This document shows, piece by piece, positions 14,558 through 25,071 of a stretch of 45,888 bases of DNA. Each line of letters starts with the position of its first letter. Position 1 is the stretch's first letter. The notes below the pieces were generated by a model, which saw nothing but the letters and a program-made list of their open reading frames with translations, ran no database searches and was not told the origin of the DNA. Origin of the DNA: Gammaproteobacteria bacterium (GTDB lineage: Bacteria; Pseudomonadota; Gammaproteobacteria; SZUA-152); contig JAKIUN010000027.1 of NCBI GenBank assembly GCA_021647505.1, positions 1-45,888 of the forward strand, given 5' to 3'. A program made the position numbers and the translations under genes.

Positions 14558-14619
14558 CCGTAGGGTGGGCATTGCCCACCAGTGGCGTAGAGAAACGGTG
14601 GGCGGTGCCCACCCTACGG
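14558..14619. repeat. Repeat family A, full palindrome
   Basis: This 62-base element begins CCGTAGGGTGGGCA and ends in its exact complement. The full arms are 23 bases, with two positions that would be G-U pairs in RNA, around a 16-base loop. It starts 2 bases after the purM stop, so the hairpin will be in the purM transcript and could shape the 3' end or attenuate purN. Confidence 0.85.
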
Positions 14620-16167: not shown

Positions 16168-16180
16168 GAAAATAGGCACA

Positions 16181-16283
16181 GGCCATGCCCGCGATGAGCT
16201 GGAGGGAGGTAAATCCTCAATCTGTGGGAGCGGCTTCAGCCGCGAATAAAACTAGATTTTTCGCGGCTGAAGCCGCTCCCACA
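16181..16283. repeat. Composite repeat family B, copy 1
   Basis: A perfect 24-bp inverted repeat (arms 16223-16246 and 16260-16283; GTGGGAGCGGCTTCAGCCGC within the left arm) closes on a 13-base loop. Upstream at 16181-16197 lies GGCCATGCCCGCGATGA, the same segment that forms the outer arm of copy 2. It sits between convergent genes and could also end both transcripts. Confidence 0.85.
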
Positions 16284-17900: not shown

Positions 17901-17994
17901 GCGCTGAGTGAATCCTTGAGGGTACAATGGCTGCCGACAACAACAGAACAGAAAACACACCAGTAGGAGCGGGCCAACCACCCACGAGGCGCAT

Positions 17995-18927
17995 TTGCAA
18001 ACACGACACAAGATCCTGCTGAAAACGGCCATCGGCCTGGCCCTGCTTGTCGGCCTGATCGTGCTGGTCGAACGCCTCATCGGCTGGACGACCCTGCTGG
18101 CGCCATGGCGCACGCTGCAACCCATCCCGCTGGCGGTGGCCATTATACTGGTATTTTACACCTACGGCCTGCGCGCCCTGCGCGTGCATGACTACTTTCA
18201 CGACGACACCCGCGGCCGTTTTGCCACCGTGCTGCGCCTGTCTCTGCAACACAATCTGCTCAACAACCTGCTGCCGGCACGCAGCGGTGAACTGAGCTTT
18301 CCGCTGCTGATGTCACACCACTTCACCATTCCGCCCCTGCGCAGCGTCCCTGCCCTGCTGTGGTTCCGACTCCTCGATCTGCATACCTTGCTGGCCTTCG
18401 GGCTACTGGTGACAGGCGACGCCCTGCTCGGCCCCGGCTGGGCATGGCCACTAAGCCTCGCCTGGATGCTGCTGCCCTGGCTGGGTTTCCGCATGGTCGC
18501 GCCACGCCTGGCGCGCTGGCAGCGGCCACAAGGCCGGCTTACGGCCCTGCTGCACCAGGCCGCACAGGCCCTGCCGCTGGACGCACCACGGTTCTGGCGC
18601 TCCTGGCTGTGGACTTTGCTTAGCTGGGGTATCAAGCTGGCGGTATTTGCCTGGATACTCGGCCTGTTTGCGAGCATGAGTGCCGTTGCGGCCTGGCTGG
18701 GCGTCATCGCCGGCGACCTCACCAGCGTGCTGCCAGTGCACGGTGTGGCCGGTGCTGGCACCTTTGAGGCCGGTGTAGTCGCCGCCCTGCTGCCCTTCGG
18801 CATCGACGCCAAGGCCGCCCTGCAGGCGGCGGTCAACCTGCACCTGTTCATCCTCGGCAGCATCCTGCTCGCCGGCCTGCTGAGTCTGGCCCTGCCGGTT
18901 CGCAGGCAAAGCGGTGATGGGGAATAA
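17995..18927 (+). CDS. Lysylphosphatidylglycerol synthase TM-region (UPF0104) family protein
   Basis: This 310-residue protein has about seven or eight hydrophobic segments and the family hallmarks. These are an early YGLRALRVHDYF arginine-rich turn, NNLLPARSGELSFPLLM (the conserved PARxGE motif), and a late SVLPVHGVAGAGTFEAG. Members resemble the flippase half of MprF and are often next to glycosyltransferases, suggesting lipid translocation. The TTG at 17995 is preceded by GAGG; no in-frame ATG is available, which makes the start tentative. It is divergent from the ArnT-like gene, and this pair is bracketed by copies of repeat family B. Confidence 0.85.
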   Translation: MQTRHKILLKTAIGLALLVGLIVLVERLIGWTTLLAPWRTLQPIPLAVAIILVFYTYGLRALRVHDYFHDDTRGRFATVLRLSLQHNLLNNLLPARSGELSFPLLMSHHFTIPPLRSVPALLWFRLLDLHTLLAFGLLVTGDALLGPGWAWPLSLAWMLLPWLGFRMVAPRLARWQRPQGRLTALLHQAAQALPLDAPRFWRSWLWTLLSWGIKLAVFAWILGLFASMSAVAAWLGVIAGDLTSVLPVHGVAGAGTFEAGVVAALLPFGIDAKAALQAAVNLHLFILGSILLAGLLSLALPVRRQSGDGE

Positions 18928-18959
18928 TGGCACCATGCACGAACTAAACCACAAACTTC

Positions 18960-19129
18960 GGAGCGGGCCATGCCCGCGATGATTTTACAGTCCTGCACAA
19001 GCGCTGTTATTTCTACCATTGTGGGAGTGGCTTCAGCCGCGAATGAAACTAGCCACTATTCGCGGCTGAAGCCGCTCCCACAAAAGAGTTATCCTTTCTC
19101 CTGTACTCATCGCAGGCATGGCCCGCTCC
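18960..19129. repeat. Composite repeat family B, copy 2 (nested palindromes)
   Basis: Outer arms 18960-18982 and 19107-19129 are 23-base inverted repeats with one wobble difference (core GGGCCATGCCCGCGATGA). Inside lies a 24-bp palindrome (19020-19043 with 19059-19082) nearly identical to the one at 16223-16283. The right outer arm ends 5 bases before the hydrophobic signal-like codons of the DUF3108 gene. Confidence 0.8.
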
Positions 19130-19824
19130 TTGTCGTGTTTCTATTGCTTCTGCTGCTGCCCACACTCGCCGTTGCAACCGAACTCCCCAACCGTTTCATC
19201 GCCATCTACGATGTAAAAAAGGGCCTCATCACCATCGGCGAAACCCGCCGCAGCCTGACGCCGGATGGGCCAAACCGTTTCATCTTCGAATCCATTACCC
19301 GCCCCACCGGTATGACGCGCCTGCTACGCAGTGGACAGGTGGTGGAGCGCAGCCAGTGGATCTGGCACGGACGGCATATGCGGCCACTGGAATATACCTG
19401 GTTCAGCCGTGGCGGCGAAAAGGCTCGCACCCTCCAATTGACGTTTGACTGGCCGCAGCGAAAATTGACCAACACCGTCAACGGCGATCCGTGGCAGATG
19501 TCGCTCACCGACGACCTCACCGTGGACAAACTCCTTTTCCAGTTACGTCTGATGCACGATCTGCCGACCCGCCAGCGCTGGCTGCATTACCCGGTGGCTG
19601 ATGGTGGCAAACTCAAGATGTACAAGCTGGAAATTCTCGGCACAGAGACCATTCGTATTCCCTCCGGCACCTACAAGACCCTTCGCGTGCAGCGCAGCAA
19701 CGGGCCACTGCAAACGACCTTCTGGTGTGCGGAAAAACTGGGCTATCTACCGGTGCGCATTGAGCGGCGTAAGGCCGATGGCAGCACCATCAATGCGGTA
19801 TTGACGTCGGTGACGGGGTTTTGA
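18970..19824 (+). CDS. DUF3108 periplasmic protein with repeat-derived 5' end
   Basis: The C-terminal 225 residues are a DUF3108-type beta-rich domain (RFIAIYDVKKGLITIGE, GTYKTLRVQR, CAEKLGYLPVRIE). It is preceded by a hydrophobic LLVVFLLLLLLPTLAVA that looks like a signal sequence. The only in-frame ATG with a ribosome-binding site (GGAG, 6-base spacing) is at 18970, inside the left arm of repeat B. Translation from it would run through the whole repeat without a stop, adding about 50 residues. Alternatives are a GTG at 19135, which gives a signal peptide with no positive charge, or an ATG at 19118 in another frame. The start is therefore unresolved. Function unknown. Confidence 0.75.
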   Translation: MPAMILQSCTSAVISTIVGVASAANETSHYSRLKPLPQKSYPFSCTHRRHGPLLVVFLLLLLLPTLAVATELPNRFIAIYDVKKGLITIGETRRSLTPDGPNRFIFESITRPTGMTRLLRSGQVVERSQWIWHGRHMRPLEYTWFSRGGEKARTLQLTFDWPQRKLTNTVNGDPWQMSLTDDLTVDKLLFQLRLMHDLPTRQRWLHYPVADGGKLKMYKLEILGTETIRIPSGTYKTLRVQRSNGPLQTTFWCAEKLGYLPVRIERRKADGSTINAVLTSVTGF

Positions 19825-20463: not shown

Positions 20464-20531
20464 CGTAGGGTGGGCACTGCCCACCAACCATGCCCTGTAC
20501 AAACTATCCCGGTGGGCGGTGCCCACCCTAC
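20464..20531. repeat. Repeat family A, full palindrome
   Basis: Arms 20464-20485 and 20511-20531 (CGTAGGGTGGGCA and TGCCCACCCTAC at the ends) surround a 25-base loop. The element begins 19 bases upstream of the dcd start and so lies in the dcd leader. Confidence 0.85.
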
Positions 20532-21909: not shown

Positions 21910-24006
21910 ATGAGCACCGCTTCCGATACATCCACACCTGCCCGCCCCCCGCGCAGAAAAATACTCGTCACCAGCGCCCTGCCCTACGCCAACGGCGCCA
22001 TCCACCTGGGCCATATGGTGGAGCACATCCAGACCGACATCTGGGTGCGTTTCCAGAAGATGCGCGGCCACCAGTGCCTCTATGTGTGCGCCGACGACGC
22101 CCACGGCACGCCTATCATGCTACGTGCCGAACGCGAAGGCATCACGCCGGAGGAACTCATCGCGCGAGTGAAGGAAGAACACGAGGCCGACTTCGCCGAC
22201 TTCGGTATCGGCTTCGACAACTATCACACAACCCACTCGGAAGAAAACCGCGAACTGGCGGAAAATATTTACCTGCGCCTAAAAGAGAGCGGCCACATCG
22301 CCGTGCGCACCATTAAGCAGGCCTATGACCCCGTGAAGGAGATGTTCCTGCCCGACCGCTTTCTCAAGGGTGAATGTCCACGCTGCGGCGCCAGGGATCA
22401 GTACGGTGACAACTGCGAGGCATGCGGCGCCACCTATTCCACCGCCGAACTGAAAAACCCGGTGTCCGTGGTCTCCGGCGCCACGCCCATCGAGAAGGAG
22501 TCCGAGCACCACTTCTTCAAGTTGCCCAACTTCGAGAACATGCTGCGCGACTGGATCCGTAGCGGGCACCTGCAACCAGAAGTCGCCAACAAGCTGGCCG
22601 AATGGTTTGAGTCCGGCCTGCAGGAATGGGATATCTCCCGCGATGCGCCCTACTTCGGTTTCAAGATTCCGGGCACGGAGGATAAATATTTCTACGTCTG
22701 GCTGGACGCGCCCATGGGCTATTTCGCCAGCTTCAAAAACCTCTGCGACAAACACGACGACCTGGATTTTGATGCCTTTCTTGGTAAAAACAGTCTGGAC
22801 AAAGACAGCGACACCGAGCTGTACCACTTCATTGGCAAGGACATCATCTATTTCCACGCCCTGTTCTGGCCCGCCATCCTGCACGGCGCCGGCCTGCGCA
22901 CACCCACCGCCATCTTCGCCCACGGCTTCCTCACCGTAGGCGGGCAAAAGATGTCCAAGTCACGCGGCACCTTTATCAATGCCCGCGCCTACCTGGATCA
23001 CCTCAACCCGGAATACCTGCGCTACTACTTCGCCGCCAAACTCAGTAGCCGCATCGATGATATCGATCTCAGTTTCGACGATTTTAGCGCCCGCGTGAAT
23101 TCAGACCTGGTAGGAAAAGTGGTCAACATCGCCAGCCGCTGCGCCGGTTACATCAGCAAGAAGTGTAACGGCCAGTTGTCCGCTACTTGCAGTGAGCCTG
23201 CACTGTATCAGCGCTTCGTCGATACTGGTGAACAGATCGCCGCACTGTACGAGCAGCGCGAATTCAGCCACGCCATGCGCGAAATCATGGCCCTGGCCGA
23301 CATCGCCAACCAGTACATCGACGAACAAAAGCCGTGGCTACTGGCCAAGTCCGAGGACACGACACAGCAGGCGCAGGACGTCTACAGCACCGGCATCAAT
23401 CTGTTCCGCGTACTGATGACCTGGCTCAAGCCGGTGCTGCCGGAGATGGCCTGCGAGGCACAGGACTTCCTCAACATCGATACCATGGACTGGCACGACT
23501 GCGGGCAGCCGCTCAGCGACCACCGCATCGACAGGTTCAAGCCGCTGATGACCCGCGTGGAACAGGAAAAGATCGACGCCATGCTGGCGCAAACCCGAAA
23601 TGAACTGGCCGCGCACACCTCGGCCGAGCGCTCAACCGAGGCAACGGAGCCCGGCCCGCTGCAAGCCGACCCCATCGCTGACACCATCGCCTTCGACGAT
23701 TTCGCCAGGATCGACCTGCGCATCGTGCGCATCAAAAAGGCCGAGCACGTCGATGGCGCCAAGAAACTGCTGCGCCTGACCCTTGACCTCGGCGGCGAAA
23801 CCCGCAATGTCTTCGCCGGCATCAAGAGCGCCTATGCACCGGAAGACCTGGAAGGCAAACTAACGGTGATGGTAGCCAATCTGGCGCCACGCAAGATGCG
23901 CTTCGGCGTCTCCGAGGGCATGGTGCTGGCCGCCGGCCCGGACGGCGAGGAGCTGTGGATCCTGCACCCGGACGACGGTGCCCAACCCGGGATGCGGGTG
24001 AAGTAG
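21910..24006 (+). CDS. metG: Methionyl-tRNA synthetase
   Basis: MetG charges tRNA-Met and initiator tRNA. The 698-residue class I synthetase has the HIGH motif as HLGH (32-35) and a zinc knuckle CPRC...CEAC (Cys156, 159, 169, 172). KMSKS is at about 347-351. An anticodon-binding alpha domain follows, and then a C-terminal EMAP/Trbp111-like tRNA-binding domain (about 595-698; [28 protein letters not shown]) that supports dimerisation. This is the full-length E. coli-type enzyme. A palindromic repeat follows 5 bases after the stop. Confidence 0.98.
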
Positions 24007-24011
24007 TTTTT

Positions 24012-24040
24012 CGGTAGGGTGGGCAGTGCCCACCCTACCG
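24012..24040. repeat. Repeat family A, minimal palindrome after metG
   Basis: CGGTAGGGTGGGCA, one base, then its exact complement: 29 bases, with no loop beyond the central G. Preceded by TTTTT. It could act as a 3' end for metG mRNA, although no T-tract follows. Confidence 0.8.
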
Positions 24041-24199
24041 TCAAAACAGCTGCGTCATCATGTCGCACCCGGCGCAAACAGGGCGCGATATAATGTACTC
24101 GTCTATGATTAGGCCATTTTGGTCTTTCCGTATCCGTAGAGAGGTCTGTACCCTGTCCGCCGCCAAGTCTATTCTCCGACGGACCACACCCAACACGAC

Positions 24200-24781: not shown

Positions 24782-25071
24782 TGCCCATGGCCATTGTGAG
24801 TATTGTCGGACGGACGAAAAGGTGACCCTCAAAGCAGCAGTAGACCGCTTCGACGGCAAATAGAAACCATTGAGTAATTCATAGTGCCAACGAAATTTAC
24901 AGCCCCGTGCAAGAGTGCAGGCGCTACAGGCCACATGGCACGCCCTCTTGACCCGGCTTGCTATGCAAAAAAATGCACCAATGGCTCTACCATTGCTGCA
25001 TTTTTTTGCTACGCAATACGGGCCAATAGCACGCACCCTGTGACCTGTTCCACTGCCGCCTTGAGGGTGGC
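24782..25071. other. Unusual 290-base gap inside the rsx operon
   Basis: In most gammaproteobacteria rsxA and rsxB are nearly adjacent. Here the gap has no gene of convincing length. Its main feature is the long hairpin at 24965-25009. Confidence 0.6.
24965..25009. repeat. Long hairpin between rsxA and rsxB
   Basis: GCAAAAAAATGCA pairs perfectly with TGCATTTTTTTGC. After one C-C mismatch, CAATGG pairs with CCATTG over a 5-base loop. Flanks (CCCG..TTGC and GCAA..CGGG) extend the symmetry imperfectly. The 3' arm holds seven Ts, so it could act as a partial terminator in either direction; alternatively it is the relic of a small inverted-repeat element. Confidence 0.75.

Follow-up and report, generated by a model that had tools for sequence, protein, structure and literature searches.

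Small palindromes inside genes are a known kind of event, since REPs, Rickettsia palindromic elements (RPEs) and RU-2 have already been reported there. The consulted sections of PMC3733652 describe REPs inside open reading frames (ORFs), many of them at N-termini, of which most in three species were proposed to be non-coding, followed by Rickettsia proteins with RPE-1 at the N-terminus, which are expressed. Extracts of PMC2229807 and PMC2759123 describe repeat-coded residues in proteins, in one case in a predicted signal peptide, and an extract of PMC3116915 describes five genome regions where REPINs apparently inserted into or next to REPINs.

The repeat described here was found at the 5′ end of a DUF3108 gene within the window, i.e. 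the whole stretch of DNA that was analysed (45,888 nucleotides, contig JAKIUN010000027.1). With the REPINs and GTAG-tagged REP dimers, as outlined in parts of PMC3116915 and PMC3733652, it was found to share inverted pairs of short palindromes, a high copy number, a GTAG tail on the outer type and a link to RAYT transposases in sister genomes. It differs from them in that the regular unit joins four REPs belonging to two types through a long spacer on one side and a short one on the other, and in that the insertion appears to have displaced the start codon of a gene still under selection. The RPEs, compared by description only (extracts of PMC2229807 and PMC3733652), are likewise palindromes within protein genes, and such a palindrome read in frame, as 23 residues, was found in the sister genome G002, whereas the window repeat breaks the native frame and would supply a new start. 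The Yersinia RU-2 in YPO1552 (parts of PMC2759123 and PMC2229807) resembles the present case as a small mobile repeat contributing to the signal-peptide end of an exported protein, but RU-2 forms part of the predicted signal peptide whereas the window repeat separates the n-region from the hydrophobic region. The GTAG-15 dimers of Anabaena variabilis (extract of PMC3733652) are also regularly nested inside another palindrome; according to that extract, the outer palindrome was seen only together with the REP, whereas here the outer type was also found alone and with its own RAYT association in G001. The BIMEs (extract of PMC2817692) likewise contain several REPs in alternating orientation with regular spacing, a likeness drawn without comparing their internal motifs, and differ from the symmetric nest of two REP types found here. 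A literature search on nested REPINs, REP-supplied starts and DUF3108 returned neither such a start nor a four-REP unit, judging by titles and abstract openings. The staged displacement of a start and the asymmetric nested composite set the present case apart within this known kind.

Architecture and family of the nested repeat

An inverted-repeat search of the window returned outer arms at 18960-18982 and 19107-19129 (23 nt, 96% complementary) and inner arms at 19019-19044 and 19058-19083 (26 nt, 96% complementary, loop of 13 nt). The initial annotation had described a nested repeat with 23-nt outer arms overlapping the 5′ end of the DUF3108 gene, which was borne out; its inner palindrome was also present, with arms of 26 nt and not the claimed 24. 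It had not recognised the repeat as a member of a REP family found throughout the genus, and a one-off palindrome was ruled out by the further copies in the genome. The composite was found to be 170 bp long and to contain four REP palindromes of two types (Table 1), with one mismatch each in an inner and an outer REP, and it fits the spacer pattern of the composite family. As in a REPIN, two REPs lie inverted in one hairpin. The GTAG tail of the left outer REP was lost in the window copy and was retained in the sister genome G004.

The RNA fold of 18915-19165 gave z = -10.48, and 0 of 200 shuffles were equally stable. A promoter/terminator scan returned promoter-like matches at 18899-18928 (+) and 19010-18982 (-) and terminator-like matches at 18963-18977 (+) and 19067-19051 (-), the shuffle means being 0.2 and 0.3. 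No target-site duplication was obvious by eye at four aligned loci, the genus being without a clean empty site, and a plasmid search of the window returned no match.

Table 1. Positions in the window of the repeat, the candidate starts and the adjoining genes
Feature	Positions	Strand	Remarks
Upstream gene, lysylphosphatidylglycerol synthase TM-region family (PF03706)	17995..18927	+	
Shine-Dalgarno-like GGGGA of native start	18919..18923	+	by eye; ATG 18935 follows 11 nt on
Native start, now 15-codon leader MHELNHKLRSGPCPR	18935..18982	+	ends with TGA 18980-18982, overlapping ATG 18979
Left outer REP (core)	18960..18979	+	GGAG, then six bases, then ATG 18970
Present ORF, 284 aa	18970..19824	+	about 53 repeat-coded codons, hydrophobic segment, DUF3108 domain
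Long spacer, 41 nt	18980..19020	+	diverged member of long-spacer family
Inner REP, first copy	19021..19043	+	1 mismatch to consensus
Inner REP, inverted copy	19059..19081	-	exact match
Short spacer, 28 nt	19082..19109	+	
Right outer REP, inverted copy	19110..19129	-	1 mismatch
Hydrophobic region and likely cleavage motif LLVVFLLLLLLPTLAVA	19126..19176	+	by eye
DUF3108 domain (PF11306), residues 80-278	19207..19803	+	E 4e-21

At up to 3 mismatches, the window genome was found to contain 125 copies of the outer-type and 91 copies of the inner-type REP, and 0 copies of the reversed control pattern for either. The outer type contained GTAG in 49 copies at no more than 1 mismatch over the 23-mer, and the inner type contained GTGG. 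The outer REP with the GTAG tail (up to 1 mismatch) was present in 7/7 genus genomes and in 0/17 other genomes of the family. Inner REPs with 1 mismatch allowed numbered 71 in the window genome, 119 in G004, 232 in G003 and 6 in G002.

Half-sites, defined as an exact outer REP, 15 to 45 bases and an exact inner REP, were found 100 times in the seven genus genomes (10 in the window genome, 54 in G003, 35 in G004, 1 in G001) and were absent from G002, G005 and G006. Their spacer lengths were bimodal, near 25 and near 40. Among 22 complete exact composites (148-178 bp), 18 contained one long and one short spacer, against 10.7 expected under random spacer pairing (P 0.0015), followed by 3 with two short and 1 with two long spacers. 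From its spacing and its long-short pairing, the composite seems to behave like one repeated unit. The 20 distinct long spacers gathered from the loci examined shared a loose consensus, from which that of the window is diverged, and the 33 short spacers were less alike; by eye, some short spacers were common to several loci, also reversed. The long spacer of the window occurred as a single copy in the window genome, in G003 and in G004, and was absent from the other 4 genus genomes.

Outer REPs with tails outward were found on both sides of 11 of the 39 inner REPINs of the window genome, on one side of 11 and on neither side of 17, among 100 of the 125 outer matches that were listed. Chance nesting of two REPINs was rejected: with an outer REP no more than 110 bp from the inner REPIN, tails pointed outside at at least 22/39 and the opposite way at at least 2/39 (Fisher p 1e-6). 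Among the matches listed, 27 outer pairs were found in the window genome, 4 of them close (16-39 bases apart) and 10 of them 86-132 bases apart without an inner REPIN, most of the latter enclosing other palindromes (by eye). Against a single unit, 17 of the 39 inner REPINs lacked an outer REP among the matches listed and 10 outer pairs lacked an inner REPIN, so that the outer pair may also be a preferred landing place. At several loci (L104-L113, L115, L121, L124, L127-L129, L136), other palindromes (GCCACAGAGGCACGGAG.., GTAGGGTGGGCA.., GTAGGTTGGCGGTGA.., GTAGCCTGGGTTGAG..) were seen by eye next to outer REPs or enclosed by them, as if insertions often landed at the outer pair.

A second inner REPIN was also found in the window at 16223-16283; 29 bases to the left of it lies a degraded REP resembling the outer type, with 4 mismatches, the whole covering 16175-16283. 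Inverted repeats of another type, GTAGGGTGGGCA..., were present at 14558-14619, 20465-20531 and 24007-24045, followed by an imperfect inverted repeat with 59-nt arms (76% complementary) at 24926-25048, after a 698-aa ORF ending at 24006.

Matches to PF01797 were found in 7/7 genus genomes, 24 of them in the window genome, where 0 of the 20 loci examined contained either REP in flanks of up to 1.5 kb. Across the genus, 3 of 45 PF01797 loci checked were found to contain these REPs nearby (L213 of G006, L207 of G003, L223 of G004), the latter two having a complete or partial composite on one flank. The RAYT of G006 (NCBIfam REP_Tyr_transpos, 147.7 bits against 80) contained inner-type REPs on both sides, as did a RAYT of G003, which is 79% identical to it and lies in two overlapping pieces, probably through a frameshift. 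The REPs flanking these two were mostly of a variant 2-3 bases off the inner consensus, with one arm exact in each genome. A RAYT of G001, 50% identical to that of G006, was flanked on either side by outer REPs, including several exact copies. In the window genome, the best relative of the G006 RAYT was 28% identical, and no RAYT flanked by these REP types was found among the 20 loci examined there. Related RAYTs 43-79% identical to that of G006 lay beside differing REP variants (L228, L229/L241, L230, L231, L235), as if REP and RAYT sequences had diverged together. Two tandem Y1-transposase genes of the window genome (L077, L079) were flanked by a third REP type, GTAGGTTGGGGTGAG...

The DUF3108 site in related genomes

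The present ORF matched PF11306 with 76.3 bits against a curated cut-off of 26 and returned no match in NCBIfam; its product is a probable secreted protein. Matches to the ORF were found in 35 of 40 genomes, those in G005 and G006 being to repeat-coded stretches alone, so that at most 33 contain the gene. The 14 named genome records were all metagenome assemblies by their titles. Both signal peptides and Shine-Dalgarno sites were assigned visually or by general rules. Within the genus, the PF03706 gene was found to adjoin the DUF3108 gene also in G002, G003 and G004. No match to the DUF3108 gene was found in G005 and G006, and none to the upstream neighbour in G001, G005 and G006; the G001 contig starts inside the DUF3108 gene and is uninformative on the site.

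In the initial annotation, ATG 18970 was taken as the only ATG with a ribosome-binding site. A further ATG at 18935, which lies 7 bases past the stop codon of the upstream gene (18925-18927) and is preceded by GGGGA, had been missed. An ATG was found at the equivalent place in 4/4 genus genomes readable there (window, G002, G003, G004), and a GTG of G009 was aligned with it by eye. This native ATG opens MHELNHKLR.. in the window, MPDLNHRRR.. in G003 and MHALNHRRR.. in G004, followed by a TGA after 15, 15 and 16 codons, respectively, which overlaps an ATG as ATGA (18979-18982 in the window) in all 3 carriers. By the length of the composite and by this stop codon, the native ATG is out of frame in the carriers. 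The composite lies between the n-region of the native start and the hydrophobic segment near 19129, and the frame that reaches the DUF3108 domain contains ATG 18970 and ATG 18979, both inside the repeat. In G002, MRGLNHRQR is followed by the element-coded residues and then by VVLLWFLLLPGFAVA, all in one frame. In several genomes of another genus of the same family, an ordinary signal peptide follows soon after the opening of the frame, e.g. MINHFLLRLLALSGALLLAGLGQA.

Three states were thus found at the site, namely no element (G009), an in-frame two-REP element (G002) and a frame-breaking composite (window, G003, G004), and they support the earlier suggestion that the repeat displaced the native start. 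Besides the window, residues 1-23 were matched at the DUF3108 locus in G003 and G004 only, and no homologue with the same 50 N-terminal residues in the absence of the repeat was seen among the 40 genomes, a check that had been proposed beforehand. Since the four genus genomes share the site, the element probably entered their common ancestor; the G009 site has diverged too far to serve as a clean empty site, and the element of G002 may have arrived there independently. The window and G004 differed at 5 of 218 compared sites over 18960-19180 and at 198 of 1600 in the flanks (18001-18959, 19181-19821; P 9e-7 for the repeat tract at a rate of 0.117), which suggests a recent local recombination or conversion between the lineages, so that a single insertion may not by itself account for all carriers.

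Upstream of the neighbour gene, the window was found to contain a 13-base remnant, GTAGGAGCGGGCC (17963-17975), at the place where G002 contains a complete two-REP element. Two near-identical two-REP elements of G002 (L083:1394, L083:2454) flank the neighbour gene, one of them being the DUF3108 element. The REP elements may be mobile: the comparison showed differing elements or none at the DUF3108 site and a G002 element that is reduced to a 13-base remnant in the window.

Start of translation and selection on the leader

The site, the frames, the architecture and the selection were observed. On these, we consider it rather probable that a REP element displaced the start and that a coupled restart inside the repeat gives an unselected leader before the signal and the DUF3108 domain; the translational coupling, the start codon used and the export of the protein are inferred from them. 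A non-autonomous REP element of the REPIN type would have entered the part of the gene that encodes the signal peptide, between n-region and hydrophobic region. In G002 the native ATG still reads through the two-REP element in frame, and in the window, G003 and G004 the four-REP composite puts ATG 18935 out of frame. The gene would now be translated from an ATG supplied by the left outer REP, either 18970, with GGAG six bases upstream, or 18979. Ribosomes would most likely start at the more accessible ATG 18935 and read 15 codons, running into the hairpin, before terminating at TGA 18980; they would then reinitiate either at ATG 18979, which overlaps this stop, or at 18970. The product would contain a leader of about 50 unselected residues, followed by a normal hydrophobic signal and the DUF3108 domain.

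In the predicted folds of the three carriers, the mean unpaired probability was 0.00-0.08 at the REP start and 0.49-0.53 in the native start region. Initiation at 18935 with a restart at 18979 or 18970 is favoured because the predicted fold buries the REP start and leaves the native start half free. A point against this reading is that the predicted hairpin would also be an obstacle to restart and elongation, and the terminator-like match in the left REP, a stem on the coding strand followed by a T-rich stretch, is a point against expression. Alternatively, the left outer REP may serve as a ready ribosome-binding site and start uncoupled from the native ATG, possibly at a time when the right arm has yet to be transcribed. 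The GGAG ahead of ATG 18970 in the window, and also present in G004, would suit such direct initiation, but G003 contains GGAA, the Shine-Dalgarno sequence and ATG are buried in the predicted fold, and the old ATG with its ATGA junction was retained in 3/3 carriers; we regard this course as unlikely.

In G003 the in-frame ATG, GTG and TTG codons up to codon 87 were found to be codons 1, 4 and 18, each of which lies within the repeat. An in-frame GTG 56 and TTG 59 were additionally present in the window and G004, from which translation could begin downstream of the repeat (GTG 19135 or TTG 19144), with a shortened signal peptide and the repeat as an untranslated leader. For the majority of REPs located at the 5′ ends of ORFs in three species, a downstream start was proposed in the extract of PMC3733652. 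Neither codon is present in G003, where the domain is equally constrained, and a start there would take away the positively charged n-region; such a start is distinctly improbable.

The dN/dS over codons 71-284 was 0.15 (window-G004), 0.10 (window-G003) and 0.17 (G004-G003), and no stops were found in the DUF3108 domain of the carriers. From these values, the domain is in use and under purifying selection in the carriers. The broken native frame, the strong hairpin and the terminator-like match would be expected if the insertion had silenced the gene and left a decaying pseudogene, but in view of the constraint on the domain in all three carriers there is very little chance of this.

Over repeat codons 1-53, the dN/dS was 1.21 (window-G003), 0.74 (G004-G003) and 0.31 (window-G004, from 4 changes only). 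The changes at the three codon positions of repeat and domain, respectively, numbered 10/7/7 and 11/10/55 for window-G003 (Fisher p 2e-4), and 9/6/9 and 12/14/48 for G004-G003 (p 0.03). Since in the two comparisons with G003 the repeat changes are scattered across codon positions, with a dN/dS close to 1, selection on the extension as a protein is unsupported. The initial annotation had noted a frame open across the whole repeat, which is correct, and this frame was the only one of six open in each of the 3 carriers; as evidence of coding it is weak, since 24 random substitutions left it open in 57% of simulations, and the open frame alone was set aside on that ground. That sole open frame and the near-identity of the repeat tract in the window and G004 would fit a repeat-coded extension that is a selected, functional segment, but with evenly hit codon positions, a frame expected open by chance and a low window-G004 value resting on so few changes, such a function is hardly to be credited. 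The N-terminal extension that had been offered as the second option is probably made as a by-product, the in-frame starts of G003 all lying in the repeat, and is probably not selected as protein.

Fifty window-genome loci, some overlapping, were examined for ORFs of at least 100 codons opening at an inward REP ATG. Such ORFs were found in the window, L150 (444 and 123 aa), L166 (281), L177 (156), L179 (117), L022/L025 (one place, 107) and L170 (104). The ORF of L166 encodes an iron-sulphur protein (Pfam Fer2_3), no Pfam match was found for the 444-aa ORF of L150 or for L177, L179, L025 and L170, and by eye a more plausible start was seen beyond the element in L166 and in the 444-aa ORF of L150. 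Among those loci, the window alone offers a convincing REP-started gene.

Significance of the probably displaced start

It is a possible but doubtful extension of these findings that the four-REP composite is mobile as a whole, joins two REP types linked to two related RAYTs, and works as a portable module for starting genes, its outer REP carrying GGAG-N6-ATG and then ATGA. If so, a composite landing in the right frame would reduce the former start to a short leader; this leader would open the hairpin and pass ribosomes on to the new start, and the downstream gene would depend on translation of that leader. The nested four-REP unit with two spacer classes departs from the usual REPIN of two REPs and one RAYT.

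The related genomes were found to contain what appear to be three stages of one event, from no element through an in-frame element to a frame-breaking composite with a selected protein. They suggest where gene callers will pick a non-ancestral start, and how a gene can put up with a mobile palindrome in its signal peptide.
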